Assembly (NCBI RefSeq): GCF_011397635.1
Contig: NC_064770.1
Location: 22,996,200-23,060,199 of the forward strand
From: Epinephelus fuscoguttatus
Taxonomy: Eukaryota; Chordata; Actinopteri; Perciformes; Serranidae
Reading direction: 5' to 3'
Length of the DNA stretch: 64,000 nt
In this document: positions 4,220 to 44,091 of the stretch, piece after piece
Layout: every line of letters starts with the position of its first letter
Numbering within the stretch: the stretch's first letter is position 1
Translations under genes and position numbers: made by a program
Notes under the pieces: generated by a model
Seen by the model: the letters and a program-made list of their open reading frames with translations, nothing else
What the model was told of the DNA's origin: nothing
The model's database searches: none

Positions 4220-7200
4220 TCATGGTTTGTGCTTAAAATAGGCCTCCACTGCAGAGAGAATGGAAACAAATATAAATCAGACTCAGAAATTGAAAGAGCT
4301 AAATCATGACTTGACTTATATGGTGTTAAATTTACCTGCGTACTCCTGAGGCAGCATTGGTCTGTTGATTACTGTTTGAAATGCAGCGATCCAGTCTTTC
4401 TGATCCTCCTCAGTCTCGCACGCAAATAGAAACTTCCTGTCTGGGGTCACTATCGTAATGCCAAACTGCCAGTGGTAGCCCTGAATGTTCGGGGGGAGGC
4501 CGGGAAGCACAGTGTAGCTGTTTTCCCTGCTGCCGATGAACACCTCACCTCGTGCATAGGCATCCTGGGGGCAAAGGGAGAAACACATATTTTAATAATC
4601 ACACCTCTAAATTAAGTGATTGTGACTAATCATGTAATTCAAAACAATTTTTGCTGTCTTAGCATGTAAAGCACAATAAACCAAATTGTCAGTGTGAGCT
4701 AAGCCCAATTTCCCAACAACATGCACACAAACTATCTACATTTTCGATTTTTGAGACCCAGAGACAAATACAGAACAGAGAAAAAGGCAGAGCAACATCT
4801 GCAGCAGCTTCCCCGCAACGTGCAGTTTTAATACCAGTGGATCTTTGAAGTACATGAGCCTCCTGTCATCCATCGTAAACCATCTCTTCTTGAAGCCCTC
4901 TGTGTGCTGTGGGACAGAAACAGGAGAGAAACTGTGGCAGCAGCTCATTTCATGGAGCTACAAATGTCAAATAAATAACGTTTGTGCTCTGCAGGTTGCA
5001 GTTACAGCTTTTCCACAACCTGATTGATATGTTAGGGAAATATGTAGAAGTATTCTATGAGCAAAAATGTTGCAGAAAACAGGGTTCTCACTCCCAGCTT
5101 GTCAAATGCCAATGTTTGGTCAGTGGCCTTCGGGGTCTGAAACTGAAGCACTGAGGCTCCCTTTAGCATCTGTATGAGACGCATTGGGTCGCGTCATTAT
5201 TAGATCAGAGCAACTGCTGTAGTATAAAGAGCAAAAAAGTCCACGCAGGGTGGGAGAGAAGGGTGGTGGATTGATCACATAGCAGGTCATGTGACATATG
5301 TGGTGTATATCAGGTGACATCCATTACGTTATGTACTTATTTTAACCCAAACCATGATCTTTATTCTCAAACTTATCAAGTACTTTTGTTGCCTAAACCT
5401 GAAAATGAAGTAAGCCTACATTGGAAGTTTATTTTTGAAAGACTGTACACATGTAATGAGCAGAAACTGACATGCCCTCCCTGAGCGTCCAAAAAAGACG
5501 CTAGTGGGGTACCTAGTTTGATGCATAGGGTCTATCATGGTAATTATGAATCTAATGGAAAAGGTAATCAACAATATTAATAGAAATTATGTAAAATCTA
5601 TGCAACATTTAACACTAAATGGAAACTTTTCAGCCTCTGTACTGTGTGCCACAAAGCAGAAAGAATGTGAAGTAATCTTGCATTTTGTCTTATCAGGATA
5701 TCATGAGCACAAGTGCCTTACATAACATTTACTCTTTGTCAGTGTGTAACACGCTGTGAGTGCTTTACATGATGTCCAAGGACATAACTAGATAAGATGA
5801 CCCAAACTGCTTTGTCACCCCTCTGACAATGTTAGCTAAAGATCCCCGACCTCAGTAAGTATCTGACATCTCCTGTGTTCAGGGCTCACTCTTTGCACTC
5901 AGCTCATTCTTGACTGTCGCGAGTCCATCTGCAGATGCTGAATTAAACTTACAGAAAGACAAGTTTCTGACTCGCTGTGTTTTGTCTAGTAGACAGTGCC
6001 ACCACAACTTGGCATTGTCGACAGGATCACTCTTGTGAGAGGTCACCTAGACTGTGCACAGCTACAGTCTGGGACTCTAACCTCAACCTCTCCATCAAAG
6101 AGGGGAGACAAGTGAAGTCCTGACGCCTGAGGACTGAGGCTCACTCACCGCTGAGACACAGTGAACCAGGTGGCTTGAGATGCACTGTCTTTCTGACCAA
6201 GCGTCGGTACTTTACGAGTTAGGAGTGAGAATGTGTTGCAGAAAAACAAAACAAACAAAAAAGAAAATTACATTACCTTTGGACCAGTCTTCTCCATGTA
6301 ACCCTCCTTTATGTAGTTCCTCGATAGCTTTGGCATCAACTAAACAAACAAAAGACAAATACTTGTCACTGATTGTGTGTGTTTCTGTTTCAAGGCCTCC
6401 ATATTGCTAGTAATACACTAGGCCTGTGTGATAACTACTACTTTTTTTGTTTTACTAATTGTAGGAAGCAGTGTCCCCACAGAAATTATGCAAAACTGTG
6501 TATGTATAAACTGTGTGTGCATGCGTGTGTGTACTCACATCAGAGTTGGAAGCTCCAGGAAAAGCCACCTGCAGGTAATGAAACCTAGCTGCTCTGATGG
6601 CGTTGAACCAGTCCACCATTTCCTTCAGGACAAGACATCAGGATGTTCAGTAACAGCCTCTTACTACAAGATTATCCTCTCACACTCACACATCATCAGC
6701 CCTGATTGTCCATAATTGCGCCAGCACTCCACACAGCACGCATTACCAGACTAAATGGCTTTTCTAAATGGCATTTTGAAAAGATCTAAACCCACAGGAG
6801 ATGTGCTCCATTTAGAAGAAGTAGCATATTCTCACAATATTATTCCTCATGCTGTATAAGTCTTGTGAAGCCTTTAGCTATTATTAAAGACTATACAAGT
6901 AAACTTCAGTGGCACACTAGCTTGTAATGGCGAACCATTTCCACCAGAGGGACACACGTGCCTTTGCCTGCATCCTCAGACACACTCCTGCGCTCGTCCC
7001 CCCACCCACAACACCAAGTAGAGGCAGTGCACATCACCTTTCCATCCTCATGGTAAACAAAGATATTCCTAGTGCTGTTGTCCTTCAAATAGGTGACCTG
7101 CAGGCCGTGGGCGATGCCTATTTTTGTCGGCTGGAAAGTGGCATTAACAGTATTGATCTTCATTATCGCTTTGGGCTCTCTGGCCTGCAGAAGGGGAAGA

Positions 7201-8732
7201 CATTTTTAGAGGAGAGAGGTATAGTCTCAGCTCTCCTGGAAAAGAAAGAGCTGATAGATAGATGATAAATAATAGAAAAACATGCAGATGTTTACCTTTT
7301 TTTTTGTAAACAAAGGCAGTTTTAACAGCGAGATCGCATCATTTACGGATTAAGAAAAAGAGAGAAAGTGGGGGGAAACACTCACATCATGTTTGTTGAA
7401 GTACTTCAAAACACCTTCCCGTTCGGACAGAATAAATTTTCGGCTGAGGTACTGTCCGTTGTCTCGGCCTCGTTTCCATAGAAACCCCTCTCTGTAGCCT
7501 GCCAGGAGGGGAGCCACATGGGTCAAGTATCATTGACACGGAGCAGGAATACAGAGAGAGAGCAGAGGGAAGACAACAGGCTTTTAATATACAATAGCTC
7601 AAAACTCTAAGATGAACATGCACGCAGAAGAGAATTATAAGGAGCACTTAATCACCTTGTGTTGAGATGGCAAACCTGTCAGCAAGTTGCGGATACACAT
7701 CCATAAGTTTCTGGCCACTCAAAGATTGTACGTCCAATTATTACTTGTGCTTTAGCTCAGTTTTGATCTCAAACTCCTGAGAAAAATATCTTGCTCATAA
7801 GTTGCTAAACATTTCACTACGTTCACCCAAGACAATTTCACTCCCATCAACAAATACAGAAGCTTTGTCAGCGGTCCTACACATCAAAATAGGATGCACT
7901 AGGTACCTCTCCTGCACCAGTTTTGACCACTCCAGGACTGCTTGTCAGTTTACCCTCATATGCATCCTGTCTTTAACAGGAAATGTGCAAAATCTGCTCG
8001 TTAAATCCTGACAGTCTCTTTTAAACTTAGAACATGGGTTATAAAGAAAATAAAAACTTACTTCCTTAGATTAGGGCAACAAAATACATAGTTGGGTTTA
8101 GAAAAATCATCATGGTTTGGCTTAAAATAGATATGTTACTAACCTGACATAACGTCACATATGTCACTAGTATAGCATGCTACACATGCTAACACACTCC
8201 ATTAACTTTTGGTGTCACACAGGACACAAAAAGCGGTCTCCACGGTCAAAGTCTTGAGTTTGTTTGACCCATCCACTTCCCCTCACCTTCATCCTTTGCA
8301 GACTTTTTAGCTATACCACAGTAGTTGACCATTGAATCTCATACTACTGCTACAGGGTGCCTCAGTGACTGATGCCGAAGGGCACTGGCCAAGCATCTGT
8401 ATTTGACGAGTTGGGAGGCAGCTCAGGTTGGTTCAACAGGTAGTTGCTAACTTCGTCTGTCTGCCGTTTGACGAGCTTGCTCACCAACAAACTGAAAGGT
8501 TCGAAGGTTCTTAAGAGCTGAGGGGAACTGCAAATACACAAATAGTCATTTACATATTGGTCTTTATAAAACTTCCCTCGTGCTGACTCATCGAGTACAT
8601 TTTGAGTTATGTTCATTACCTATGCAACAGTGGTCACCAAGAGCTTGAGAGATCTTTTAGCATGTAATGTTACACAAGACACTGACCCAGAAACAATGCT
8701 GGTGGAAACCACTGAAGAGCTGTACTACTGGC

Positions 8733-14120: not shown

Positions 14121-17100
14121 CACCCAGGCACATGATTCAGCACAAAAGACAGAGATAAGGGTTACGCAATACGCATTAGTGAGGAATTAAGCTCAGGCCA
14201 ATGACAAAATGATCAGATGCAGACGACCACAAGAAAAGGGTGAGACAAATAGTGGCTTGGCAGAAACAGAGGAGGGTGTGGATAAGGAAAGAAAAACAAG
14301 GGAGAGGCCGACGTTGGACAGCAAAGGGCGGCGTTCCTCCCTTGATGACCAGCCCTCGTTGTCTCTGCAACATAAGGCATGCTGACACGCCATCTATCTG
14401 TCTACCTACCGATGAGCACTAAGTCTGACTGGCAGGCTAATCGGGCTGGGCCATGTAAATGAGTGGTGTGCCACGGTGCCTACTGGGCCATGATGACTTA
14501 TTCATTATTACACCCTTTGACTGTGTAATGCCATTAGCAGGCTAAATAGCACCTTCACACACACTGACCCCTAACAGATATCGATACACTTTTCTCACAA
14601 GATCATCACCACAGTTTGTACTGCTTTAAATGTAACACCCCTTGTCCCTAGAATGTTGTCTCTCTATCTGCAGATAAATATTCGTACACTAGTGCATCAC
14701 ATGGTCATAAAATAATTTTCGCTAGCGGGCTTAGATGAGAAGACTGATATTAGTCTCCTTTTTGTGTGCTAGTAAGTAGGAAGCTGGAGTTGGGACATGG
14801 TTAGCCAACCATGACATAAAGAGTGGAAGTAAAGGGAAACAGCTTGCCTATGCTTATTTTCAAAATCCATACATATTATTTCTTTGGTCTAAGACAGTCC
14901 AAAAATATAATTAAACATGAACAACTCTCCAAAAATCCAAAAACTAGACAGCTAAACCTCAGATATGTGACGTCATAGGGTATAAAGTCTGGGGCTGCTC
15001 CAAAGACGATGAATTGGGAAAGATGTCATAGGTGAAACCGAGAGCACCCAGGGTCATGTTCTCCAGATATAGACTTAAACCGATGCGTGCAGAGGTACAG
15101 TACAAGCCTGTCGTTTGCGGCTCTTCATCAACATCTCACTCTGACTGTTTCTGCTTTCACTTTCCTCCCTGTGTTATTATTAGACTTGCCTTAATCATTG
15201 CCATTATTATTGAAGAGAAACTGCTGACAAAGTTCCACTAATTCAGTAATAGCACATTTCATTTCCTGCAGATTCTTCACAATAAAAGTCATTTTGTTGT
15301 GTAAAAACTTTTATTGTGAAGCACCAAAATAAGGAAATGTTGAGTTTTCGCGCAGCAACTTGGTAATTGAACTTTCTTGGGCCATGGAGATACCATATTG
15401 GAACTCTTACCTGAGGTGGTGTTTCCCTCTAAAGCTTAGTTATTAACCCTGTATGACTCATTTGTTTAAACATAAACAGAAAAAAAACTACTTCAGGTTC
15501 AGCTGTAGATGCATGCTGTAACCATTTTTCTCATTCCCTAAAAATACTGAAATGTTCCTTTAAGCTGCAGCAGCAAAGTGGGGTATGAGGTGCCGCCTCC
15601 CTTCCTTTCCGCTTTCACTTTTCACCCAAGAATGCTTGTAATGATAAATGGATGATGCAGTTTCCCTGCTGAGTATTCATTTAGTGCTGAATAGGTGGTG
15701 CTGTGCGAGACACAATTACTTGCTTTCCTGGGTAAGCAAGGAGCATAATGTGTTTGCATGCATAACTGTACAGAGGCACATTTCATTCTTACCTGCTGAG
15801 TAGGGCTCCTGCCTCTCCACACACTGGAACTCCTTCCTCTCGTACTTGGCTCGGATCCATTGTTCCCGCAGGAGCCTGCACAACAGTTGGTGTTAGACAC
15901 TCAGCTCAGCCTCCGGTTGATGTTTACTTCATGCTTGAGGTGATTTGTTGGAATCATCTCATTAACTTACATGGGTGTCGAGACTCCGAGCCACATTTCA
16001 TGCAAACTCTGAACAAAAGCAGTTGAATATTACACAGCTCATCTTCTCGTAAATATCACTTGTGTCTCCCTCGTCCTCGATCTTTCACGATGCTAATTAT
16101 ACGGCCCATGCTCTTCTATTATCTCATATCTATCTTGATTAAATTCGTTTCGCTGGAGTTTTTCTGCCCTCTTAATAAATAACCTTAACGTTCACAAAGC
16201 ATCATGCGTAAACAAATGGGCTGTATGCTCACCAAGACACCGCATCATTTCAGCACACTCACCACGCTTAATCAGCTATGTCATCTTCAACAAATCAGCA
16301 TCACAAAATGAAATGTAAAAGCCTTGCGCAGCTCTTTGATTTGTCTTTCTCCTTCTCTTCTTTATCCAGTCATCTATTCCTTTGTGCAATAACCCCTCAT
16401 AAACACAATGCAGGTCTATACGAAAATTAACTTCACAGTTCTATTGTCATTTATATCACTGGATAGTTAAGAAGAAACTCTTGAAATGAACTTTTGCTTC
16501 CTGTTCGAACTACAGGAACTTGGCACTCTTATCACTCAGGAGTTGACCTGACTACCAAAACCACTTGCTGCTCCTATTAGAGAAGTATTTCACCGCAGGA
16601 AGGATGGGCTTTTCATAAAACTGGGCCATCTATGCAGTAGGAAGACAAAAATTACTTCTGAAACTGGTGCTAAATGACCAGAAAAACCAAACAGAGGAAA
16701 GGAGCTGTGGCATTTGCTTTTGCTTAAAGGGAAATTTCGGTTTATTTCAACCTGTCTCCTATCGTCCTAAATTTGTTTCAAGTGTCTAATGACATAGAAA
16801 TAATAGTTAGCCGTTAGCCTAGATACAGCCATAGCGTCAGACCTGTTAAAACATAAGTGAACGGGCATACCTTCAAGTGCAAAGTTAGTCCACTAAACAA
16901 GCTTTTTTCCCACAAAGACTGCCTCATATCGTTAGGATAAATGTCAGAGAACATATAGAAAACAACATGTAAACTGGTGTGGTGCCATTTAGCTCTGCTT
17001 TCCAAAGCGTGGCTGAAATATCGCGAGAACAAGCAGCGATCTCATACCGTGCCCGAATTCTTGCGAGAACAAGCAGCAACAGCTGGAAGGCAGAACCGGA

Positions 17101-20100
17101 CAGTAGCCTGAAAAGTTCATTCATTTATTTTATGAGTAATGACTGACTTTTTGCCAGACTTCGACTTTGTGGAGCAGGAATTTGATTTTGCAGAGTTTGA
17201 TGGCCGCCCTTATTTATTTGAGCCAGAATACACTGACGAAGAGCTTTGTGAAATTGAAGAACGGAGCAGGAGAGAGAGAGGCGCAACAGGTAGAGGACAA
17301 GAGAGGAGGAATGGCTGCTGCAAGGCTTTAGCTCTGGAGAGTGGTGGTGTACCTGTGAATGCTGTGCCCCAGTGCCCACAGAAAGGAATGCCTCTGTTGC
17401 AAGGAATGGGACCGGTTGCAGCCTTATTTTCAAGGTCTGGATGTGACCGAGGACAAGACACCTCCACCTGGAGTAATGTTAGTATCCAGCTGGGCTTTAT
17501 CTAGAGCTGGTGAGATGTATTTCTGCCGCGCTTTGGAAAGCAGAGCTAGATGGTAAACAAACATGGCAGCACACCAGTAAAGTAAGACAACACGTTTACG
17601 TGTCGTTTTCTATATGTTCTCTGACATTTATCCTAACGATATGAGGCAGTCTTTGTGGGAAAAAAGCTTGTTTAGTGGACTAACTTTGCACATGAAGGTT
17701 GCCCGTTCACTTACATTTTAACAGGTCTGACGCTACTATGCGCCCCGGCTATATCTAGGCTAACGGCTAACATGCTAACTATTATTTTTATGTCACTAGT
17801 CACTTGAATTAAATTTAGGACGATAGGAGACAGGTTGAAATAAACCGAAATGTCCCTTTAAGAGGTAGAAAACCCACAACTACCAAAATGCACTGAGCCA
17901 CACCATACCAATATACGCTCCCGCTGGTGGTTGATGTAATGCGAGCCTGGTCATTTTTTTCCACAGGACACAATATAGTGACCAATGGTAACAAATGACC
18001 TCAAACTGCAACTGGCAACCTAAAATAAATGGTAAATGGACTGAACTTGTATAGAGCTTTTTCTACTCTTCTGAGCACTCAAAGCACTTTAACACTACAT
18101 GTCATATTCACCCGTTCACACACACATTCACACACTGGTGACTCACACTACAGTACAAGGTGCCACCTGCTACTCAGTAACCATTCACTTGCACGTACAC
18201 ACCGATGGAGCAATTTGGTGTTCAGTATCTTGCCAGAGGATACCTTGGCATGCCGACTGGAGGAGCTGGGGATCGACCTAATTTTCTTTTCGGCCGGCTT
18301 TTGTTTTTACAATACAGGAAACACTATTGGGCCCACTTCCTTTTCACAAACTCTCGTATTACAGCATATGGAACAATAACTGCGATCTTAAAAGGTGCCA
18401 TCTGGAGCAGACACTACAGAGGGCAGAGAAAAACACATCACTTACATGCAGTCTTTGTGTGTAGGACAGTAGAAGAAGGCAGGAACTATCTTTTCATATT
18501 TGGCCTTGGCAGCGTTGTTACCCACAGAGTCCATGAACTGCAGAGGGGAGGAAGAGAAGCATTTGATACTTGTAAGTGATATCTGTGTGTATAAGTGTGT
18601 GCTCTGTGGCATAATGGCCGTGAGCGCATGTATGTGTATTTGGCTGACACACACTCAAATATAATGAGGTGCAGGCAGCTCAGTGTTTGTGTGGCTGACT
18701 CCATGCCCGGAGGGAGACTGTGCTGCTGCTTCTTGTGTGTCTCTGTATTTAACAGAGAGGACACTGCTCAGCATGCATTAGCACACACAGCTAGGAAACT
18801 ACAGATCACACATCCATTCACACACAAATCAAAAGAGAAAGTCAGACAAAGGGGGACATGAAGAGAAAGAGCTAATGACAAAACACACCACAAACCTTTT
18901 GACGCACACATTTACACAGAGTGGAAAGCAGATACGGATAATCTGACTGGACTACATGTATGAAAATACATTTTTCTTTTCGCCTCATTCTTGATTAATC
19001 GTCCTGTTTTTACAGTGAGTTAGAGTGTCCCAGGATTCAGCACACACCCACACAAAGATAGTGGTTGTATCTGCCAGCTGCTGGCTCATGGCTTTCAGGC
19101 CACGCTGAGTCGAGTCTAATGACTTGTCTTATTCTTCCAAGCAGGGATGCAGTGGCAGAGCGGCAGGCGGAGAGTCATGCTCACAGTGGAGCAGGATGTG
19201 CTGGGTGAGGGCGAGGCCACAGGCTGCAGATGTTACCTCAAGCCATGTTTCATGCTATAATCAATGGTTGCTCTTCTCTTACAAAACACAGGGCTTTCTA
19301 ATTTGTTCAGGATTTGTGTGAATTAAAAAAAAATCACTTCAAGTAGAGTTCTTACTGTACCTCCACCTCAGCAGAGCTCCAGGGATCCAACAGGATGGAT
19401 TTCACCTTGCTGATCTGAGCAATGTTTCTATGAAGGCCCGAGCAGCTGAGACACACAAACACTCCCAGGGTATAGGACGCCCACTCCGGATCTGCAACAC
19501 AGCACAGATGTGCACAAAAACCACTTTAACCTCAAAATAACCGATCACACACTGAAACATTTCCAAACTTCCTCCTAACAGACACTGATGACTCAGCTAC
19601 ATTTAAAGCAGATTAAGCATAGTGAGCAACATACAACCAAAACAGTGGTTGCTACATTACAAGCAACTAACTATTTACATGTGTATCTATTTAAATATAT
19701 ATTTGTCTTTTTTACAAGGATTAATATTCCTGATAATTGCATGTAGTTTTGGTGCCTGGCCAAAGAAGAAAACAGAATTATGGATAGAGATCTGACACAA
19801 GGGTTAGGACCAGTGGTTGAGGAAGTACTCAGAGTCTTTACTTGAGAGAAATTATTAATACCACACTGTAAAAATGTTGTTACAAGCAAGGCCCTGCAGA
19901 GAAGTACAGTATTCACAAAGTACAGTATTCACCTCTGGGATGTAGTGACGTGGAAGTTTAAAGTTGCATGAAAAGAAAATGCTTAAGCAAAATACAAGTA
20001 CCTCAAATCTGTACTTAAGTACAGTACTAGAGTAAATGTACTTATTACATTTGACCACAGGGTATGACAGGGTGATGACTTACAGGAACATCCCTCAGCA

Positions 20101-23100
20101 CTGAGCCATTTGTCTTTGCATCTAAAATAATACATTTTCCAAGTGTGTTCACTTCATCCCAAACACAAAGCAGGTTACCCAAAGTGCAGTGAGCTTGTAT
20201 AAATGATCTAGATTTAACAACTCAATCAACATCCTCAGAGTGATTATAAGCCTTCCCCCAGTTGCTCAAATGTTCAATGTTTGGGTGAAATGTATGTCAA
20301 TCAAGATGTGGATTGTATTTAGGTCCGTGTGAAGGCAGACTGGGTGTTTCCTTTGTCTTAGTCAGTGTGTGAGAGAGTAGATGGCTCACCTTGAATCACC
20401 CAGCAGGGTAGTGTTTCATAGATGCTATTTCTGTCCACAGACACAAACACAACCAAATGTCTCCCTTAATGCCGTATTTACACATAAACAGCCCACTTTT
20501 ACTGCAACTCAGAGACACTGGATTAGATATGGTAATGAACTATCTTCAAAATTCTTTCCTGTTATCACAGGCTGGTACATGAATATACTTAGGAATACAT
20601 ACTGCATGCATAGCCAAAACGAACAACACGCTGAACCTTGAAGCAGACGGGCTACAGCAGCAGAAGACCACACCAGGTGCCACTCCTGTCAGCTAAGAAC
20701 AGGAAACTGAGGCTACAGTTCATACAGGCTCACCAAACTTGAACAATAGAAGATTAGACAAACGTTGCCTGGTCTGATGAGTCTGGATTTCTGTTGCCAC
20801 ATTCAGATGGCAGGGTCAGAATCTGGTGTAAACAACATGAAAGCATGGATCCATCCTGCCTTGTATCAACGGTTCAGGCTGCTGGTGGTGTAATGGTGTG
20901 GGGGATATTTTCTTGGCACACTTTGGGCCCCTTAGTACCAACTGAGCATGGTTTAAACACCACAGCCTACCTGAGTATTGTTGCTGACCGTGTCCATCCC
21001 TTTATGACCACAGTGTACCCATCTTCTGATGGCTACTTCCAGCAGGATAACGCACCATGTCACAAAGCTCAAATCATCTCAACATGACAATGAGTTCACT
21101 GTACTCCAGTGGCCTCCACAGTCACCAGATCTCAGTCCAATGGAGCACCTTTGGGATGTGGTGGAACGGGAGATTCTCATCATGGATGTGCAGCCGACAA
21201 ATCTGCAGCAACTGTGTGATGCTATCATGTCAATGTGGACCAAAATCTCTGAGGAATGTTTCCATCACCTTGTTGAATCTATGCCACAAAGAATTAAGGC
21301 AGTTCTGAAGGCAAAAGGGGTCCAACCTGGTGCTAGCAAGGTGTACCTGATAAGGTGGCGGGTGGGTGTATGTGTCTGTGCATGCATTTAAACTACAGCT
21401 CCAACTACTGAACATTAATATAAATAGTGGAAATTCACAGGCCTGTCTACAGTGTATCATATATAATTACCAGTGGGCAACATGCCATTCACACTCACAC
21501 CACATTCACACTACCATTCACACTTTTTAGCCTACATGAGTCACTGCCACTTCCCACACCTCTGTGCCCCAAAAAAACAAAATATGGAAGACCTCTGACA
21601 TAAAGCAAACAAACTGAAAAGATGACATACTTGTGTTTCAGCACTCATGACATATTGCCATGTTCTCAAGAAGTTCAAAGGAAGGTCAGAACTTCACGCA
21701 GTCCTTTGAAGGGTGACGAGAGCGGAAAGAGTGTGCAGCATGACAATTATCAATTTCACAATAAAAACACAGGATGTTTGTGTTTTGTTTTTGTTTTTTT
21801 TTTCATTTTTAAACCGAAAGAGTAAGTAAGACAGATTATTTTGCTTTCGCAAGACACAGCACACTAATCAAGTTAAAATCAGGTCTGTGGACAGACACAC
21901 AACAGGCAACAGTTGCAGCAAATGTGTGAATGGCTACACACACAGCTCCTCCTACTCTACAAAATCTAATTTTGAGAATCATTAGTCATATCAATGAAAG
22001 GTGAGATGGCATCTGCCGTGGTGGTGGTGGTTGTGTTGTAACTGAGAACTGGGGCAGTGTCAAGCGCTCTCTATCTGCAGCCCTTCAACCATTGCTAATC
22101 AAGAGAAAGTGAATACACGCTGCACAAACAAGCATGAGAACAAAAAAATAAAGTATTACTTCCTTGTGCATAATCACAAAGCTGCACACATCTGTGCACA
22201 AGAGACAAGAGGCTCATGTGTAGCTAGCCACTCCCCATCGTCTCTGCATTATGTGGGCCTGTTGTAGTTGAGACAATCAACCGAGTCACTCTGCAGGACA
22301 ACAGGATGCATATTCAGTCGAGCAGCCACGGGGTACAAACACATTTGGCATGGAAGAAAAATGTAAGAGTCCAGAATGAATCAATGCATGAAGCACCTTT
22401 AGATCAATATAGCTGATTAATCAATTGAAAGATAAAATATCCTGCAACTATTTTGATAATAATAAAGTCATTTTAGTCTTTTTTTAGGGAAAATTTCAGG
22501 TGGGGGGAAGCCAAATATTCTCCAGTTGCAGCTACAAGAGAATTTGCTGCTTTTCATTGTCAAAACTAACAATGTCTTTGTTTGAATCCAGGATATTTTA
22601 TGTGCAGGGTTTTTCTCTCATTTTCTAAGATTTCATAGACAGGCAGTTGTGAAACTAATCCTAAACATGAGAGAGAGGAGCTTCAATGTTTCAACACCTT
22701 GAATATATTACATTTTGACCCAGACGCAATGCCAAGTGAGGGATAATTCACTCAGCAAACTGGACCTTTCTTGCTCTCAGGCTAAAGTAGAGCCTTACAA
22801 ACCACACCCGTATGCTTGTATTTCTCTCTCCCTTCTTGCATGCCTATGTACTGAACTGCAGATGTGATAAGTGCAAGGTGTGACCATCAGCGTGTGTGAC
22901 TACATGTGCTCAGGCAAAAGGAAATCAACCACCAGATGAACACACATTTGACCTTTTTTAACCTGCAAAAACACATCTGAGAAAGATAGCCCACATAGAA
23001 ATAGCAGTAGAAGTTAATAAATATGTTGCAGAGCACTTTTCAAGCAACACTGTGGCCTTAGACACTTAGGTTAACAATATATATATATATATCATTAAAC

Positions 23101-23507
23101 ATTATTTAGTTATGTTCACTTTGTTTTAGCTGTGTGTCTACATTATAGTGGGTGAATTCCTTGCATGCGCACACATACATGATCATTAAAGCGGATTTAG
23201 TCTTTTTCAGAGATCTTAAATGCACTGCGTTCCTGTGAAAGAATCATTTTATCAGCTTTAAAATATTTCCAGGCTACATTGTGACTGTCCAAGACAAACT
23301 AAACGACCTTGTCCCACGGGAATCAGTAGTCACAGAATGTATACAAACACATTTAAGTAAGAAAGGGTCACTAAAATGCCTCCGTCCATCTGTCAGTGAC
23401 TCCTCTCCAAGCCTACCTGGAGCTCCGCAGTCGGCACAGTTTCCATTCCCAGGTTTCCCCAGCAGCTGCTTCAAACGCTGCCTGTTCTTCTCTTGATCCG
23501 AAGCCAT
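4220..23507 (-). CDS. adap1: ADAP1 (centaurin-alpha-1), ArfGAP with dual PH domains
   Basis: Eleven exons join in phase to 377 aa (human protein 374): 23417-23507, 19361-19491, 18446-18537, 15793-15875, 7386-7498, 7038-7184, 6539-6622, 6277-6339, 4835-4906, 4336-4564, 4220-4248. All have GT-AG borders. The ArfGAP zinc finger uses C24, C27, C44 and C47, with the arginine finger in SGLHRN (R52). PH1 spans about 133-233 and includes NATFQPTKIG; PH2 spans about 258-361 and includes TEGFKKRWFTMDDRRLMYF. The family binds PI(3,4,5)P3 and inositol phosphates and promotes Arf6 GTP hydrolysis at the plasma membrane. The sequence is closer to ADAP1 than ADAP2 throughout (for example RPMLPQEYA then VEAYFKHKP). 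The start is the second of two adjacent ATGs, matching family N-termini; an in-frame ATG at 23573 would add 22 residues. The last exon is only 29 nt. Intron 4 is about 8.3 kb and repeat-laden. Confidence 0.95.
8735..8800. repeat. (GT)n microsatellite with CT interruptions
   Basis: A GT tract interrupted by CTGTGT blocks at its right end, inside the long fourth intron of ADAP1. Confidence 0.95.
10588..10610. repeat. ACTAGT hexamer tandem repeat
   Basis: About four copies of a GTACTA/ACTAGT unit in ADAP1 intron 4. Confidence 0.9.
10927..11022. repeat. Perfect 16-bp inverted repeat with 64-nt loop
   Basis: GCCTTCTATCAGGTTA at 10927-10942 is matched exactly by its reverse complement at 11007-11022. 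It could be the arms of a small fold-back element or a transcript hairpin within the ADAP1 intron. No direct duplication flanking it was identified. Confidence 0.7.
11415..12147. mobile_element. TTAA-flanked non-autonomous DNA transposon with long inverted repeats
   Basis: TTAA at 11411-11414 and 12148-12151 flanks a 733-bp element. Its ends are imperfect inverted repeats (AGGAACACTCC left; AAGAATACTCC as reverse complement of the right). Homology between the arms extends inward over more than 200 bp, for example TCATTTATCCAGTCGTATGC at about 11650 and its complement at about 11900. TTAA targets are used by the piggyBac and Kolobok superfamilies. No transposase is present, so it is non-autonomous. 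Confidence 0.8.
12160..12735 (+). mobile_element. LINE reverse-transcriptase fragment (CR1/L2 group)
   Basis: An open stretch encodes the C-terminal half of a non-LTR reverse transcriptase: LEEIEAWMKLNFLQLNSPKT, NLGVKMDSQLTFD, then SSRLDYCNALL and ITPILKSLHWLP. These are the palm-end and thumb motifs of CR1/L2-group LINEs. The endonuclease and the catalytic FADD block are missing on the left, and the reading frame runs into unrelated sequence after HWLP, so this is a truncated insertion in ADAP1 intron 4. The open frame of roughly 180 codons suggests a fairly recent insertion. The exact clade (L2, Rex1 or CR1) cannot be fixed by eye. Confidence 0.8.
12742..13012. repeat. Diverged tandem duplication beside the LINE fragment
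   Basis: Two units share TTTGGCC(C/T)GATTCTGGGG, the phrase CATCCAGCATGCC and the ending GGGCCAGGTCATT. The first starts near 12742, the second near 12895. The unit is about 150 bp. Confidence 0.7.
13275..13540. repeat. Copy of a dispersed fish repeat (CACACTG-ACC-CTTT end)
   Basis: Shares phrases with 27265-27722, including TTTGTCTGTTCTGGGCTACT, GTAGATATA, GGTGATTATACACT and the ending CACACTGACCCTTTAA. This is a diverged copy of one non-autonomous repeat family, probably a DNA transposon. A third, interrupted copy lies at 53640-59760. Confidence 0.7.
14088..14118. repeat. (CA)n microsatellite
   Basis: An uninterrupted CA tract in ADAP1 intron 4. Confidence 0.95.
15275..15321. repeat. Perfect 15-bp inverted repeat, short loop
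   Basis: CTTCACAATAAAAGT at 15275-15289 is mirrored by ACTTTTATTGTGAAG at 15307-15321. CATTTCCT outside the left arm and AGGAAATG outside the right arm extend the pairing imperfectly. It is likely the centre of a small palindromic element. Confidence 0.75.
16728..17857 (+). mobile_element. TTAA-flanked transposon carrying a P2X7-type cysteine-motif ORF
   Basis: TTAA at 16724-16727 and 17858-17861 flanks 1130 bp. The ends are inverted repeats (AGGGAAATTTCGG; right end in reverse complement AGGGACATTTCGG). Homology of the arms continues for about 300 bp, through GCTCTGCTTTCCAAAGCG. The unique centre holds an ORF on the plus strand (separate entry). It lies in ADAP1 intron 3. The TTAA target and AGG termini suggest Kolobok more than piggyBac, whose ends usually begin CC; this is inference. 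No transposase is encoded. Confidence 0.8.
17139..17504 (+). pseudogene. Transposon ORF with acidic FEPEYTD motif and P2X7-like cysteine cluster
   Basis: A 121-codon ORF opens MTDFLPDFDFVEQEF, continues to YLFEPEYTDEELCEIEERS and then a basic stretch. The conserved cysteine part lies at about 17330-17465 in the other two frames, reading WWCTCECCAPVPTE and then ECLCCKEWDRLQPYFQGL, so the gene carries small frame breaks. The pattern W-C-x-C-x2-C followed by L-C-C resembles the zinc-binding cytoplasmic domain of P2X7 receptors (WCQCGSC ... ELCC in the human protein). No membrane segments or P2X ectodomain are present. A related ORF sits in the element at 27727-28837. Its role in the transposon is unknown. 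Confidence 0.6.
18020..18275. repeat. Dispersed fish repeat, copy 1
   Basis: Shares GGACTG(A/C)ACTTGTATAGAG, CCACCTGCTACTCAGTAACC, CAGTATCTTGCC and the ending GGAGGAGC(T/C)GGGGAT with 43605-43880. The two copies lie in introns of ADAP1 and the CYP2K pseudogene. I cannot assign a family name. Confidence 0.75.
19492..23416. other. ADAP1 intron 1
   Basis: A 3.9-kb intron with no host exon seen. It holds a Tc1 remnant at 20640-21370, a short TA tract near 23077-23092, and otherwise AT-rich sequence without recognisable structure. Confidence 0.6.
20640..21370 (+). mobile_element. Tc1/mariner transposase remnant
   Basis: The DDE half of a Tc1-type transposase is readable: WSDES near 20778, GGVMVWGIFSWHTLGPL, GYFQQDNAPCHKAQIIST and WPPQSPDLSPMEHLWDVVER. 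The N-terminal paired-type DNA-binding domain is missing. One frame break near 21086 separates the QQDN block from the SPMEH block. No intact inverted terminal repeats were identified. It is 5' truncated and not functional. It belongs to a different subfamily from the Tc1 at 53733-55358. Confidence 0.85.
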
Positions 23508-23510
23508 CAT

Positions 23511-25690
23511 GTAAATGTTGGAGCCCAGATGCCTGCTCTGCTCAGCGGCTGCACGCCTCAAACTCTCACGCATCGAAAGTAAAGATTGACGCCGGGACGC
23601 GCAGGGTTGATTTGGAACAAAAGTAGCGCGCCCTAAGCGACTAATGAGAAGGCTGTCATTTTTAGGTGGAGGGTGGATGAAGAGTGGAGCATGGTCAGTC
23701 TAGTGTAGGTGATGTAAAAGCCATTTAGATACACCAATAAATGCATTTCAGTCTTGTGTCTGTTTCTCTGGAGGGAGACCTCCAGCGGTCATTGTGATGG
23801 TTGGAGACGCGCTCAGGACACTCCCAGACACAGTCATGCTTTCTTGTACCTCAAGTTTTGTTTTGTTTTGTTTTTTTGTCACTGATATTTTAACGATGAA
23901 CGTTGTCAGAATTTTAGAAATACTAAAGGCATTTATCCAAAAGCCAAAATCTGTCATGTCACCAGCCAAATTCAGAAAAATGTTCTGAGAAATGAAATAA
24001 AACTAAATTCTGTATTTTGTGGTCTTGTGCCAGGTAGATAGTTGTTATTAAATTCCTCTCTTTTTGCCTCAAACACACGAATGATCTAAGAAAACATGAC
24101 ACACGGGTGTTTTCACTCACACCTGATTGGACCTGGGCTCAGATTGAACGTGGGCGGAGCTAATATTTGGGTTGGTTGGCACACAGGGGGTGCATTCAGA
24201 ATTGCAAACTTTTTCTTTGTACTTTTAAGAGGTACTGTAGCTGCCCCTAGTTGATGAAATGCAAGAAACATTTTTTTTAATTCTGTGTATAGGCTACACA
24301 TTTTCACAATTAAGAAAGTAAGAATCACTCAAGGCTTGTGACAATAAAAATGAAAATTAAAATGTTAAAGAAAAATAGCCATTATTCATTTCTGTAAAAA
24401 AAAAAAAAAAAAAAAAAATTGCCAGAGACACAGGGAGCCAATGGAGAAGGGCAAAAGAGCTGCATGTTGCTCCGGAGCCACAGGTTGCCCATCCCTGAGA
24501 TAGAGATATTGGAGAAGTGTTACTTCTAATTAGTAGTAATTAGGGATCTATATTTTTAATATAAGATTTGAAAGTGTGATGAGTGATGGTAGCTGGCTAA
24601 CATAATTTCATCACAAGGTTGGGTCGACTGTGAGCAGGGTTAGTTCACACACTTATGTTAGAGTGTGTAAAATTACCAACTGTAACTGTAAGTGTACTGT
24701 AAGAGATTAAAACTATTTTGAAAGATTACTGATAGACTGCTTAAAAATTGGTGCCACAAACCCCCTGATAGGGCTGGTTGGCACAAATGCAAAACATGAC
24801 TTTTTTTGTTTTGTTTTGTGTGTGTGTCTTCATTAAAGCCTATTGATTCATAGCTGACACATTAGCCTTTCATTTGCTGCTGGTTAGAGTATTCTCAAAT
24901 AAATTATACCAAAAAGTATGGGGGAAAATGAGAAGTGTGCCCACCAACCCTGGTCTTCCATACGTGTTAAACTGTCCCACTCTAACAGGTGCAACGAAAC
25001 TCACAGGAGACTGAGGGAAATGTCAGTCATACACACTTTGCACATGCTCATACAGTCCTTTAAAAATAGTCTTATTAGCCAAAAGAAAGCTGGAAGCTAC
25101 AGAAATTTAAGGACGTATGAAATTATGTGCATCTATTTCACATTCCTGTTTCTATGCACACCGCCAGCTTTATGCCTCCCCTTCTATAATTGATTGAGAA
25201 TACATTAAAGGGGTGTTGTTGTTTATGTGCTGACTGCTCCCGTAGTGCCACCTGCCAATAATAATTTAAAAAAAAAAGTTATTTTTCCTTTAGAAAAAAC
25301 GCTTCCCTTAGATCTCATTTCTTTATCCAGTAAATGATGCTTAGGAAGAGGAATGTGCTGTCACAGCTGCAGTGGGGCAACAGTGTGCAGCCTCCTACTG
25401 TACTTTAGGTTCAGTAGGTACCATCACTCAACACAGACTTTCAAATCTTATATCAAACTATAGCTGATTCCTTTGCCTATTAACCAGAACACTTCAATAT
25501 CTCTATCCCACAGTTTTATATTAAATTTAGTCCACAGAGCAGGTATTAGAAACCTAATGACCAAGTATGATTACAGTGTTGCTGCTGAGCTGTGAGCACA
25601 TTGCTGCATATCTCTTTGTTCATATTCATTTGAAAGTATGGCAGCCAAATTAAACATTAACTGACTGTTACACAGGGAACGCCTGTTTCA
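23511..25690. other. Intergenic DNA between ADAP1 and RNPS1
   Basis: The ADAP1 promoter should lie just right of 23511 on the minus strand. A 23-base A run is at 24396-24418. The phrase GCCACAGGTTGCCCATCCCTG at about 24479-24499 looks like the end of an hAT-type repeat, but no partner end was found. No gene was recognised. Confidence 0.5.
24396..24418. repeat. A homopolymer run
   Basis: About 23 consecutive A residues, possibly a retroposon tail. No matching source element was identified to its left. Confidence 0.85.
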
Positions 25691-25696
25691 GCATTT

Positions 25697-25702
25697 TTAT
25701 TT
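25697..25702 (-). terminator. Candidate RNPS1 polyadenylation signal
   Basis: TTTATT on the plus strand reads AATAAA on the RNPS1 strand, about 320 bases after its stop codon. The position fits a short 3' UTR. The actual cleavage site is not shown. Confidence 0.45.
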
Positions 25703-26024
25703 TTCAAAATGTCTAAAAATTCCAAACATGGTAAAAAGAAGTCATACTTAAAAAGAAATATTTGTAGATCTCTGTGAAGCAGAAACTCTGCTCAAAACAC
25801 GATCAACCCTAACACAAAATATGAAAAGAGACTCACATTTGCACAAATAGAAAAAAAGAGAAAAGAAAAACATTTCCGCTTTCTACATGCAGGCAGATGT
25901 TGACGTTGGCTACAGTGCAGATGATTACACTTCTGGTGAGTCCATGAGGTCTGGAAAGCTAGATCTCCAGCTGATCTGGTGTCAGAGAAGAGATCACTTC
26001 TTATCGGGAGGCAGGAAATCTCGT

Positions 26025-29000
26025 CTATCTGGAGGAGTTGGAGCTGGAACGAGAGCGGTGACGCCTGCGACCAGGAGATCTGGAGCGGGAGCGGCGGCGT
26101 ACTGGGGATCGCCTTCTTGGAGAGCGGGACCTACAGGGGAGGGAATGAGCAGACTTAATGCTCTGTACCAAAGAACATATATATATGCGTTCACGTGATC
26201 GTGTGAAAGTCAAATGTAGATGGACTGATTGAAATCATCCAACGTACCTTCTCCTCATGCGTGGTGGACTGCGACGCCACATATGTTGTGGTGGAGGCAT
26301 TCTGCGAGGGGGAGAAGGTCTGCGAGGTGGAGGACGCACTCGCTGAGTTAGCACGGCAGATGCGGTGATTTCTTGTCCATCAATCTGACCTGTCAATAAC
26401 AGTCATCACAGAGATTTATTCAACCAGTGTGCCTAGAGTAATGGTGTGACACAGAGGCAGTGAAGGACACACGCTGGCCTACCTCCGTCCATGTGTTTCA
26501 GGGCCTTCTGGGCCTCCTCAGGACTCTCAAACTCCACGTAAGCGTAGCCCCTGGACAGGTGTGGGTGGACTCTGTCCATCGGCATTTCGACCATTTTGAT
26601 TTTTCCATAAGTGGAAAAGATCTCCTGGATGTGGTCCTGTGCAAAGAGGAAATACAGTATGCTTATTAGAACACTTCCCACCATTCCGTTTTGGTCCTAG
26701 AGATTATGAATGCGGTGTCCTTGTCTATCTTATGTGATGTTTCTGAGGTAGAGCTATGACCTTAAATCATGTTTTCTCCTATAAAAAGCTCAACAATTTC
26801 TCAGCTGACCTTGGTGACATTCCTGGTCAGTCGCCCTAAGTGAACTTTAGTTGGTTTTGGGCTGGGGCTTCTTTTCCTTCGCTCCTTATCATCTCCTCTC
26901 TTCTGTGTTTTGGACCTGCAGAATCACAAACAAAGCAGCAATTCATTTCATCATGACTTAAACAAGTGAAAAAAATACAAGACATCACTGTGAATAAAAA
27001 TTTTGTAGCTGGTGACTTACGCTGAGCGGGAACGGCGGCGGTTGTCGTGGCGTCTACGGCTGGGGCTGGGGGAGCCTGAGGAGCTGGAAGAGGAGGAGGA
27101 ACGAGAGCTTGAAGAACCAGAGCGGCTGGAGCCAGATGAGCTGGAGCCACTTGAGGAACCTGAGCTGGAGCCGGAGCTGCTGCTTGAAGTAGAGCTCGAT
27201 CTGGACCTGGTCATGGTCAAAAAAACAAAACAAAATAAAACATGTTAGGTAACAAAATATACATATTTACTGGTACAATGTGTAACTTCTAGGGGGATGT
27301 AGTGGCATCTAGTGATGAGGATTGCAGATTGCAACAAGATGTTCATTGTTAGGAGGTTTTTCCTGGGAGCCAAAAAAATCCACAGAGGTCTTCTCCTCTC
27401 CAAAATAATTTATTTTAAACTGATAAAAACACTTAATAAAGTCTTTTCACATTAAGAAAACAGTGTTTTTCAACGCCCTTATAGTGGAGGGGCTGCTGAC
27501 TATGGTGGCTGACACAAAAACATGAATGTCCCAACTAGAGCCAGTGTTTGGTTTGTCTGTTCTGGGCTACTGTAGAAACATGGTTGTGAAATATGGCTGT
27601 CTCCTCTGTAGATAAAAATGGCTCGCACTAAGGAAATGAAAACACAACAGTTCTTAATATTGGGTAATTATACACAAAAGAAACATTATTATATAATCCT
27701 AATAATCCTACACACTGGACCTTTAAAGGGGTAGTGCACCCAAAAATGAAAATTCAGCCATTATCTACTCACCCATATGCCGACAGAGGCCCTGGTGAAG
27801 TTTTGGAGTGCTCACATCCTTTGCGGAGATCGGCGGATGGAGTGGCTAGCACACCTAAAGGTAGACGGCGCCCCAGACTAACGTCCAAGAACACAGAATT
27901 GAATCCACAAAGTATCTCCAAACTGCTCATCCGTAGTGATCCAAGTGTGCTGCAGCCGCGACATAAAAAGTTGTTTCAAAAAACGTCATATGAACTCTGT
28001 TTTTAGCCTCACTGTAGCCTGTAGCTCTGACTGCTTCTCTGTGCGCGCGCACTCAGGGTGATTGGCGATCTCCGAAGAGCAGCAGTCTCCTCAGTACTGA
28101 TGTCCAGATTCTCAAGTGCAGACATCGCCAATTCCCAGTCTGAGCAGCAAAGACTTTCCTCATCCGTTGACATTGCTTTGCATTTGAAACAACTACACCA
28201 CCAGGTTTCCAGTGCTCGACTCCGGTATTCTGCGGCTGGCTGAGGGTTAGGCTCATGAGCTGTGGCAGCTGCTTCATACAGGAGCCTGAGTTCCATCCGT
28301 ATACTCGGGCTCAAAAAAGAAATGCTGTTCCTCCTCAATTTCAAAGTCTTCAGACATGTTGGGCTGTCCTTTGCTAAAAGACCGTAGTGCAAATTATCTT
28401 TTAGCTACTGTGGTTACCGTTGTCTCCCCGTGTGGTGCACGTGTCACGTGATGTAAACACGGGTGAGCAAAGCTCATGCTTTCGCTGGTCTCGCGCAGGC
28501 ACGCACATGTGAATGCGGAGCTCAGAGAAGCAGTCAGAGCTACAGGCTACAGTGAGGCTAAAAACAGAGTTCATATGATGTTTTTCCAAACAACTTTTTA
28601 TGTCGCGGCTGCAGCACACTTGGATCACTATGGATGAGCAGTATGGAGGTACTTTGTGGATTCAATTTTGTGTTCTTGGACGTTAGTCTGGGGCGCCGTC
28701 TGCCATTAGGTGTGCTAGCTGCTCCCCCCTTGGATCTCCGCGAGGGATGTGAGGACTCTAAAACTTCACCAGGGCCTCCGTTGGCATATGGGTGAGGAGA
28801 TAATGGCTGAATTTTCATTTTTGGGTGCACTATCCCTTTAAGAATGGTGTTGTCACTAATATAAACACTAATAATAATCACATAAAGAGGGAACTAAGAA
28901 AACAAACCTGCTGCTGCTACTGCCAGTAGAGGCACTGCGACGTTTCCTTGCTTTGTCCCGTCCTCTGTCCTTGTCTCCTTCCTTGGTGCCAGTCTTTTCT

Positions 29001-36038: not shown

Positions 36039-39000
36039 TTATTTGACCCTGCTGACGGCACACAGCTCATAAGGTAACGGGTTGAGAGTGAAGCCCACAG
36101 CTGGTGTCAGATCCAGTTCATCCTCTGTGACTCCAGATGGAGGAGTGAAACGAAAGCGCTGGAGGAGGGAGGTGAAGAAGAGGAAGAGCTCCATCCGAGC
36201 CAGGCTTTCTCCCAGACACGCCCTGCGACCTGTGAGATAACAAGTTGAGTGATCTGAAAACTGCAATTGGCATCAACTAGAGGTGTTAGATAGGCTTGTT
36301 TAGCTGAGCTTGCTAACCTGCAGAGAAAGGCATGAAGGCATCTCTCTTGACAAGCCTCCCATTCTTGTCCAAGAAATGGGCGGGATTAAAGGTGCGAGGG
36401 GTCTCCCACTCATTTTCATCCCACAGAACAGACGTTAAAAGAGGAAACACAATGGTCCCCTTGAGAAAAAAAGGTCTTTCGTAATTATAATGTTTCAGCA
36501 TGCATGAACTTTAAGACTTCTTTCAATCAGTCCGCTTTTTACCTTTTTAATAAAATAGCCTTGGAAGGTCACATCTGTGCTGGTTAGGTGAGGGACAGCG
36601 ATAGGAAGGACATTGGCCAGTCTCTGTATCTCGTGGATGACAGCGTCAGTGTAGGGCAGGTTCATCCTGTCCTCTGCCCGAACCTGACGGCCTCCGATCA
36701 CCCTGCTCAGCTCCTCCTGGACTTTGGCTGGAAAATGCAGGAGGACACAATGGCTAAAAAACAAAGCAGCAGGAAAGTACTATAGAAATCCAGCATGATT
36801 GCATCTCACCTAAGTCAAACAAATAGGTGATAAGATAAGATAAGATAAGATAAGATAAGATAAACTTCACATGTCACAGCAGCTCATAAAACTTCTAGAT
36901 GACTTCAATAAAAAAATAAATATAAGCCAAGGAGCAAACAAGCTGCATTGTGACCACCCAGCTATTCTGTAAGCCTGTCTGCACAACTGCACAACAAATT
37001 TCAGACCATATATTAAATCCTAGTCTTTTCAAAACCATTTCTGTCTGCTTTTAGGGTCTACCACTCCACCGCAAAAACTATTTCAGTTTCAACTATGATG
37101 TAAAGCACCCCTGTTGGGGACTGCACCTGAGTGCAACAGGTCTGATACAAGCATATTACTTACCTTGTATTTGAGGATACTTGGTCATGAATAACAGAGC
37201 CCATCTCAGTGTAGTTGCTGTAGTATCAGTACCAGCCGAAAAAAGGTTGGCAGTACTTGACACAAGGTTGCCTGTGTTGTAGAATGAGTCCATAATCCCT
37301 GAATCCTTATGAAAAGGTAAAAAGTTAAATGTGTTTATTTTAATTGTAAAGGAGCTCAGACCATTTTTCATCTTTCAGATATTAGCATCAATTAAGTCAT
37401 AAAAATGTGAATAGAAGTTATTAGATTTCAACCTAGTATTAATATATTACACTAGATTTAAATACCTCTAGCTTCTGTTTATGGGCCAGGTAGGAGTCCA
37501 CAAATCCTCTGCACATCTGAACATTTAAAGTTTCTTGTAGTTGTTTGATCAGCCGCCTTATTTGTTCTCTATTATCAGCAGCACTCTTCTTGAGACGCGC
37601 CCTGTTGCTCACCCATTTGGTCATCCAGGGGAACATGTTGGTCAACTGTTGTTTGAAAAAAAAAAAGAAAGGCAGGATTAAACACACTTTCAACCTGTTT
37701 GTTTTGTTTTCTGGAAGTATTTGAATGAACAAAGAATACCATCATGGTTGGTAATATATGGCAACAGGGACTGGACCAATGGTCAAACAGTTGTAGACAG
37801 CAGGGTGAAATTGGCATTGGCTTGCAGGCAGAGAGTCCAAATGGCGGGTAGGTAACAGGCAGACGAAACAAAGCGTTGCAACATTTTGGCATTGTCCAGA
37901 CGTACATGGGCAGTTGTAAAAAGTCCCCACAAGGAGTATTATGAAAAAGTCTTAATCTAAATGAAAACCCCAAAACACAATTGAAGTGCTGCCAAGAGCA
38001 CGCCAAACTAACAGGCAGCAAGATAATCCTCACTCTAAAGGCATGCAAAGAAGAAGACTAAAATGTTGGCCACTCAGAAGCCTTAAAAAAAGCAATTACC
38101 TAAGGCTACCTGTAGCAGTGGTGAAAATGCCACCTCATTAGTGACGCGTAACAAGGAAAGTAACGGAGCGCACTCTTGACGCTACAAAGTACCAAGTACC
38201 AAGTTTCTAAAATCTTTACTCTGGACAAAGTTTTACAGAAGGTCCATTATCAGTTACCTAAAATGCAATTTGTGTGTGGACAAAAGGGCAAAATGCTGAG
38301 AAAATATAGGCCTATGATGATCTGACAATGGAACAAAGGAAATGGACTGGTATATGGAGGGTGGCTGACGAGGGAATGAGATGAGGAAGTGGGTTGGTTG
38401 AAGGGGTTGTGAGGTGACCAGGGACTAAGTGACTAAGGGCAACTAGTGGATGGTCTGGGAAGTTAAAACTCATTTATACTCAACATTAGATACAGTGACG
38501 GACGGAGGTTTCTGTCCGTAAGCTTCTGGATATGGACGAAACAGAGCAGTACCACTGGAGATCATGGAGGCAGTGTGCTGTAGTTCAAGCAAGGTATGAC
38601 CATAGGAGACAACAAAGAAATTTAAATAATGGTGGAACAGAATAAAACGGTAATACATAGGCCTACTGAAAAGAATTCTCCTTCCTCATGTATTGGCCTC
38701 ACAGACCACCACCGTCTACAATGCTGCCTCCACTAAAAGGCGCATTATTACAACCCCCTCAACCGTCACCTCATTTGTTGATGTGTTAAGCTGTTGACTC
38801 TGAATCAGTTGTATCTACGCCAATATAAATGACAAATGGAAGTATGAGGGCAATGAAGTTTGCAACATTTTAAACAGACGGATCTATTTTCATACGTAAA
38901 GGGAGTATAAATGAGCCTTAAGAGGATGGTATATGGCCTGAGCAGAGGCTGGAGACAAGGGCAGAGAGCCAGGCCAAGCAAAATAAAGGCAATCAGCTAG

Positions 39001-43885: not shown

Positions 43886-44018
43886 CCCACTGATATCTAC
43901 CATTAACACAGGTCTGGGTAACTTCTCATTTATTGCAATTGACTATTCTAAATAGTTGTAGTAGCTGGAGAACATCTCACATATACAAACTAAGCACTGC
44001 ATTTGCCTCTGTGGAAAA

Positions 44019-44091
44019 GGCACTGCTGGGATTTGAACCCAGGATCTCCTGTTTACTAGACAGGCGCTTTAACCAACTAAGCCACAGCGCC
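44019..44091 (-). tRNA. tRNA-Thr (anticodon AGU)
   Basis: A 73-nt cloverleaf on the minus strand. The acceptor GGCGCTG pairs with CAGTGCC (one G-U). The A box reads TGGCTTAGTTGG. The anticodon arm CCTGTCTAGTAAACAGG places AGT in the loop. The T arm is CTGGG-TTCAAAT-CCCAG. TTTT immediately follows the 3' end and would stop RNA polymerase III. The sequence closely follows vertebrate tRNA-Thr-AGT; the T loop has TTCAAAT in place of the usual TTCGAAT. No CCA is encoded, as expected. It lies inside an intron of the CYP2K pseudogene in the same orientation. Confidence 0.93.

Follow-up and report, generated by a model that had tools for sequence, protein, structure and literature searches.

As far as the accessible text of a 2022 study goes (PMC9587614), KolX, a protein of Kol0 Kolobok transposons, is similar to P2X7 residues 476–595, P2X7 is proposed to have formed when a P2X4-like gene fused to KolX, and this transposon link is said not to have been pointed out previously; the same text gives TTAA duplications and 5′-RR/YY-3′ ends as marks of Koloboks and DxxH as the signature of their transposase. 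T2-type miniature inverted-repeat transposable elements (MITEs) and non-autonomous Koloboks of Xenopus are characterized, in the portion of PMC6004289 available, by a TTAA target and AGGRR termini. Excerpts of PMC7016195 describe the P2X7 ballast domain and nanor, and define the P2X7 ZCD by WCxCx2C, LCCRx3GxCITTS/T and a PSC...IR..FP cluster. Here, we analyzed a stretch of 64,000 nucleotides from Epinephelus fuscoguttatus (the window, in which all positions below are counted unless a contig is named) that carries two TTAA-flanked elements, E1 (16728–17857) and E2 (27727–28837), each with a P2X7-type cysteine motif series in its interior.

Very probably, E1 and E2 represent two repeated non-autonomous Kolobok families that derive from longer elements with KolX and a transposase, and that carry half of KolX as a passenger. 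The central idea, the KolX–P2X7 link, is already published in the accessible part of PMC9587614 (2022); the addition made here is two transposase-less repeat families with the same KolX half, together with full-length KolX–transposase elements, in one genome.

Results

Structure of E1 and E2

E1 is 1130 bp and E2 1111 bp long, and both are bordered by TTAA on each side (target duplications at 16724–16727 and 17858–17861 for E1, and at 27723–27726 and 28838–28841 for E2). Arm alignment places the left arm of E1, a terminal inverted repeat that starts AGGGAAATTTCGG, at 16728–17020 (+) and its right arm at 17518–17857 (−); they measure 293 and 340 nt, respectively, and share 275 identities over 292 aligned bases, with 49 gap columns. 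The E2 arms, at 27727–28054 (+, starting AGGGGTAGTGCACCC) and 28510–28837 (−), measure 328 nt each and are identical at 300 of 327 positions. The ends of both elements read AGGG...CCCT (AGGGA/AGGGG starts). An initial annotation of this DNA had reported the same coordinates, sizes, TTAA flanks and arms of about 300 bp, all of which we confirmed, and its observation that the terminal sequences of E1 and E2 differ also held, with nothing in common past AGGG.

The window holds 473 TTAA sites. Scanning them for pairs at most 5 kb apart, with 14-base inverted ends and no more than two mismatches, passed five pairs: E1, a pair within E1, E2, 5346–8121 and 38467–38917. The same inverted-end scan passed no pair in five shuffled windows, and neither it nor a pattern scan showed further copies of the E1 or E2 families within the window.

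Homology of the interiors

The internal regions (497 bp in E1, 475 bp in E2) consist mostly of a KolX fragment. FEPEYTD, WWCxCx2C and LCCxxW occur in the same order in both elements, but they occupy three frames in E1 and two in E2. The first open piece of E1, MTDFLPDFDF...RPYLFEPEYTDEEL..., lies at 17139–17339 (+) and aligns with other E1 copies; the first zinc-cysteine cluster, WWCTCECC, follows in a different frame at 17342–17365 (+), and ECLCCKEWDRLQPYFQGLDVTEDKT in the third frame at 17386–17460 (+), where the E2-homologous stretch ends. The fragment of E2 lies within 28084–28357 (−), with MSEDF...FEPEYTD in one frame (FEPEY at 28301–28315) and ELRLL...WWCSCFKC (28180–28203)...LCCSDW (CCSDW at 28135–28149) in the other. 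Accordingly, the motifs that had been attributed to a short protein in each element are present, while one-frame coding of that protein is seen in neither.

A frameshift-tolerant codon alignment of the two interiors scored 95. Control comparisons with both strands of 60 window pieces (120 in all) reached 45 at most, and 60 shuffles reached no more than 49. With frames joined, BLASTP aligned E1 and E2 with 30 of 89 identities, and the identity of their KolX segments is only about a third. The likeness ends at DVTEDKT in E1 and DISTEET in E2. The best single-frame E1–E2 score, 59, was above the 51 obtained from 300 shuffles, yet two of the 280 other pieces of the window exceeded it with 65; therefore, no lone motif match is significant, whereas the ordered series is. 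By sequence comparison, the interiors of E1 and E2 are homologous and their ends are not.

Matches to the P2X7 domain

We compared both elements with the Pfam family P2RX7_C (PF20478), whose curated cut-off is 23.5 bits. The unmodified E2 frame matched at 20.3 bits (E = 5.7e-4), under the cut-off, and the joined-frame E2 peptide at 20.9 bits, the best of all E1 and E2 queries; searched by itself, a 52-residue fragment of E2 scored no more than 13.8 bits (E 0.056). Among five other E2 copies, four scored 15.0–18.7 bits and one had no match. The two open E1-family copies described below scored 18.5 and 18.1 bits, and the E1 window copy itself was not significant (E 0.67–8.4, or no match). The profile search suggested in the initial annotation thus yielded matches for E2 and for open E1-family copies, all below the cut-off, and none for E1 as it stands in the window. 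The matches fall in profile positions 34–101 of 192.

None of 10 whole shuffles matched P2RX7_C, and one matched another family at E = 0.0096; therefore, E-values near 0.01 carry little weight. A rearranged control peptide that retained the motif scored 17.7 bits, which shows only that the motif carries the match. Profile comparison with P2X7 gave E 3.4e-4 over 21 columns, at a probability of only 38%. Among solved structures, there was no match for E2 or for a two-row profile, and nothing was confirmed in viral contigs or prokaryote genomes. Against a 30-locus database of the same genome, the composite E2 peptide matched cysteine-domain loci best (E 2.7e-6) and a putative P2X7 exon at E 0.005; the best match of the E1 peptide was at E 1.9e-4.

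E1 and E2 retain the first five cysteines of the zinc type (WCxCx2C plus LCC). A pattern scan of both elements did not find the later cluster (the CITTS cysteine and PSC...IR..FP), and neither element has the complete ballast fold of KolX with about seven conserved cysteines. Similarity to a KolX that adjoins a Kolobok transposase, itself called from its motifs and the DxxH in DVWH, is present. With only the first five cysteines, the segment is therefore filed as a truncated KolX fragment: it corresponds to the N-terminal part of this Kol0 Kolobok accessory protein and lacks the remainder of the P2X7 ballast domain.

Classification as Kolobok derivatives

E1 and E2 are non-autonomous Kolobok (T2-type) transposons. 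Both have the TTAA target-site duplication of Koloboks and the 5′-RR...YY-3′ termini of Kolobok and T2 elements (AGGRR in T2). All 14 E2-family copies with both ends visible (E2 included) are flanked by TTAA at each end, as are 5 of 5 such copies among the E1-family members fetched. No DDD/E transposase was detected inside E1 or E2, and their open reading frame pieces gave no transposase in Pfam; they are therefore classed as non-autonomous derivatives and not as autonomous Koloboks.

Between Kolobok and piggyBac, both of which the initial annotation had considered, the ends decide for the former. Their AG...CT form (RR/YY) is Kolobok-like and unlike piggyBac, as far as the available text of PMC9587614 describes these, and no transposase is present; we rejected a piggyBac identity.

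Repeat families in the genome

We searched the genome assembly that contains the window (1,046,998,120 bases, or 1.05 Gb, in 26 contigs). Match counts are lower bounds, and unscored candidates are not confirmed copies.

The E1 DNA query found at least 40 places, scored from 1,931 candidates. The 39 besides E1 are 87–93% identical to it, and most are near full length. Six copies were fetched, hand-chosen from the first 12 of the 40 listed places. Two of them (L054 and L058) have a continuous frame of 138–139 codons with both cysteine groups; it leads from MAD by way of PYLFEPEYT, WWCTC and ECLCCKEW and extends into the right arm. The other four are frame-broken, several at a GA-rich repeat. This short repeat lies at 17264–17281 in the window, within the KolX frame of E1, and differs in length among copies, which shifts the frame.

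The E2 frame query gave at least 150 matches, scored from 2,562 candidates. We aligned 22 copies, E2 included, of which 8 were cut out automatically and 14 were chosen from the 150 listed, mostly for long open frames; L020, the same place as L007, was removed before E2 copies were counted. Their layout is mostly alike, some having one end missing or an insertion. The frame is broken between FEPEYTD and ELRLL at the same site in all 22, and a single open frame from FEPEY to LCCS was found in none of them. E2 and L002 lack 15 bases, giving FFFEPEYTD, where the other 20 copies have a fuller PYLFEPEY-type stretch. Substitutions among the copies (23 silent, 40 replacement and 1 stop; shares of 0.36/0.63/0.02, compared with 0.27/0.68/0.04 expected) look close to neutral, in a sample picked by protein score. 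The common frame break suggests that the E2 family spread without its protein.

KolX genes and transposase-like sequences in the genome

The PF20478 profile search revealed at least 82 matches in this genome (150 of 228 candidates scored) and none in 14 control genomes. The top match scores 216 bits and lies in an exon at C6:43142617; judging by score and sequence, we take this exon as P2X7. The putative P2X7 gene spans C6:43140182–43143069; its last exon (L024) holds the full ballast domain and is preceded by a weaker exon match. At 20 other loci, most of the domain lies in one stretch (starting no later than profile position 80 and reaching at least 186), some with stops. FEPE[YHF] was not found in loci L024–L053, each of which includes roughly 1.5 kb to either side of its match.

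Near four of these 30 loci (L033, L034, L048 and L049), all of the one-stretch cysteine-domain type, we observed LExFHxH...LA(A/G)xDYNHH, which looks like the C-terminus of another putative transposase. These four may thus belong to transposons and not be nanor genes of the host.

Other loci hold split KolX genes, their exons being read from frames and splice-like signals. That at C5:26441700–26444100 consists of the pieces RPYMFEPE...SQW; CPCGNC...CC; CMVDHPGLEPVCL; and YRYLAYRSFVSWCWG...PACVVLRIR..FP. Sequences on C14 (L060 and L051) and C21 (L062) resemble it, with pieces two and three forming one frame in L062, and the multi-exon genes have PYMFEPE and PYNFEP exons. E1 and E2 match the first two C5 pieces, including the PY-x-FEP motif (E 0.001–0.02, one-locus database). 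The composite E2 peptide tracks L062 as far as PEDTTCL, and the next zinc cysteine is there in L062 and absent in E2.

Downstream of the C5 KolX, convergent open pieces contain TDRH, DVWH, LEAFHS and LAALHYNEN, which we take to be Kolobok-type transposase motifs. DVWH fits the DxxH signature given in the consulted part of PMC9587614. The same transposase-like pieces lie downstream of KolX at all five further copies, on C4, C25, C9, C8 and C1 (on C9, three of the four KolX exons were among the matches listed). In total, six of six KolX genes read downstream, together with a divergent seventh on C14, adjoin a convergent Kolobok-like transposase; the L062 sequence ends about 0.2 kb past the last KolX exon with no transposase seen, and was not scored as a miss. 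On C4, an element at 673751–679367 (L070, L065 and L071) comprises 5,609 bp between TTAA sites, has short AGG ends and, as read from its sequence, would contain a multi-exon KolX and a convergent putative transposase. Its left end, TTAA-AGGTGACATATTATG, was obtained by comparing C4 with C5, and its right end, the inverted copy AGGGACATATTATG with TTAA, from C4 alone, the C5 stretch stopping shortly before.

Other features of the window

The TTAA-flanked pair at 5346–8121 starts CCC, and its inverted ends match imperfectly, with many mismatches over 147 aligned columns; it is not clearly a transposon. Pfam matches include cytochrome P450 exons (p450) at 39142–39645 and 50906–51277 (−), a DDE_3 transposase, Tc1-like in appearance, at 54527–55192 (+), and a non-LTR retrotransposon with endonuclease and reverse transcriptase at 57517–59526 (−). 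A tRNA-Thr (agt) was called by ARAGORN at 44018–44091 (−).

Discussion

We infer that each family goes back to a longer parent, which had the termini of E1 or E2, contained both KolX and a transposase, and lost the transposase gene and the distal part of KolX by internal deletion. The TTAA-targeted AGGR termini would have been kept, so that a Kolobok transposase encoded at another genomic site could mobilize the families in trans, and the leftover KolX segment (FEPEYTD, WCxCx2C and LCC) would travel as passenger DNA. The founder of the E2 family was probably frame-broken already; that of the E1 family was probably open, its copies decaying one by one. The KolX in E1 and E2, only half of the protein and broken in both window copies, is most likely a passenger. 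The initial annotation had suspected one accessory gene family moving with several TTAA transposons, and this family can now be named as KolX of Kol0 Koloboks, in E1 and E2 alike; its further suggestion of a relation to the source of the P2X7 tail agrees with what is proposed for KolX in the accessible text of PMC9587614.

Several results weigh against this reading. The longer relatives whose collection had been advised at the outset were found as KolX-bearing elements with an adjoining Kolobok-like transposase, but none with E1 or E2 ends; no element combining E1 or E2 termini with a transposase was found, and no genome-wide search for one was made. The C4 element has other short ends and no significant DNA likeness to E1 or E2 (best E 0.22); it is therefore a cousin of their parents and not a parent. 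In the C5 and C14 KolX, an intron interrupts the cysteine cluster between its W and its C, and there is none in E1 or E2; therefore, the multi-exon C5/C14 family is not the direct parent. The putative transposase was recognized by its motifs, and the one transposase piece tested in Pfam matched no family. The P2RX7_C cut-off was never attained by E1 or E2 sequences, which are therefore not filed as Pfam members, and E1 did not match the putative P2X7 exon significantly (E 0.66 and 0.32).

A doubtful but still serious alternative is that both families descend from one small KolX-bearing ancestor, which lost the distal KolX once and whose ends were later replaced or diverged. The similar size and layout of E1 and E2 would be explained in this way, as would the common end of their likeness at DVTEDKT and DISTEET and the parallel of the composite E2 peptide with L062 up to PEDTTCL, where the next zinc cysteine is missing from E2. 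If an exon ended here, as one does in C14, the common break would be explained as well, however, and with KolX segments only about a third identical the split must be old. Moreover, the arms of E1 show no likeness to those of E2 past AGGG.

Given the open E1 frames, a functional half-protein is conceivable, which selection would maintain and which might compete with or regulate full KolX or the transposase; we consider this unlikely. The 138–139-codon frame with both cysteine groups in two of six fetched copies, and the 87–93% identity of the listed copies to E1, are in its favor; yet E1 and the other four fetched copies are broken, several at the GA-rich repeat. In the E2 family the break common to 22 of 22 copies, none with an open FEPEY–LCCS frame, indicates that the protein is not needed there in cis, and the substitutions among copies (a sample chosen by protein score) are near neutral. 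Slightly less credible still is the broader idea that the N-terminal half of KolX was retained repeatedly since it is useful to the element, as DNA or as protein (end binding, or blocking of full KolX). If it were, E1 and E2, whose ends are unrelated, would represent the same development in parallel, and the protein from which the P2X7 tail derives would have a modular half that still moves in fish genomes.

Capture of a host-gene exon, from P2X7 or a nanor-like gene, instead of inheritance from KolX appears very improbable. The genome does offer possible sources, in the putative P2X7 exon (C6:43142617, 216 bits) and the 20 loci with most of the domain, but FEPE[YHF] is absent from loci L024–L053, whereas the PY-x-FEP N-terminal motif is common to transposon-borne KolX (L061 and L070) and L062, and two families with unlike ends would need to have captured homologous pieces. 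A chance resemblance of the cysteine motifs, for which one could cite the non-significant lone motif matches against other window pieces and the E1 window copy without a significant P2RX7_C match, has a negligible probability given the frameshift-tolerant homology, which rules it out at the controls used (95 vs. a maximum of 49), and the matches in other copies and in KolX genes.

The interpretation of E1 and E2 as Kolobok derivatives with a KolX passenger brings together, in one genome, a P2X7-type exon, cysteine-domain genes, KolX–transposase elements and half-KolX repeats, which fits the published origin of the P2X7 tail. With full, half-open and broken versions in the same genome, KolX function is made testable. 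Many small repeats, possibly thousands, can hold such fragments, and annotation pipelines may call them P2X7-like genes. A literature search, with Repbase and most subscription journals outside its reach, showed, among the results listed, no paper on small elements with half a KolX, and the E1 and E2 families may well be catalogued already.

Among known systems, the KolX of Kol0 (PMC9587614, accessible parts) is like that of E1 and E2 in being transposon-borne, in its similarity to P2X7 residues 476–595 and in its cysteine groups; in this genome, it adjoins a Kolobok-like transposase, once between TTAA-AGG ends. In contrast, only the N-terminal motif of KolX and its first five cysteines of the zinc type remain in E1 and E2, which have no transposase, and their terminal repeats are much longer than those of the single full element read (C4). 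A piggyBac with a KolX-like protein, mentioned in the same excerpts of PMC9587614, shares the TTAA target; its KolX-like proteins lack most of the seven cysteines, and the ends of E1 and E2 are instead RR/YY, of the Kolobok type. The P2X7 ballast domain with its ZCD, and nanor, as described in the available portion of PMC7016195, have WCxCx2C and LCC as E1 and E2 do; unlike the ballast domain, E1 and E2 are without the CITTS cysteine, the PSC...IR..FP cluster and the P2X channel part. The putative P2X7 exon of this genome is matched weakly by the composite E2 peptide (E 0.005). MITEs are usually without coding remnants. The T2-type MITEs of Xenopus, in the part of PMC6004289 consulted, resemble E1 and E2 in their TTAA targets, AGGRR termini, many copies and lack of a transposase; unlike them, E1 and E2 hold a recognizable fragment of an accessory gene, open in two of the six E1-family copies fetched.

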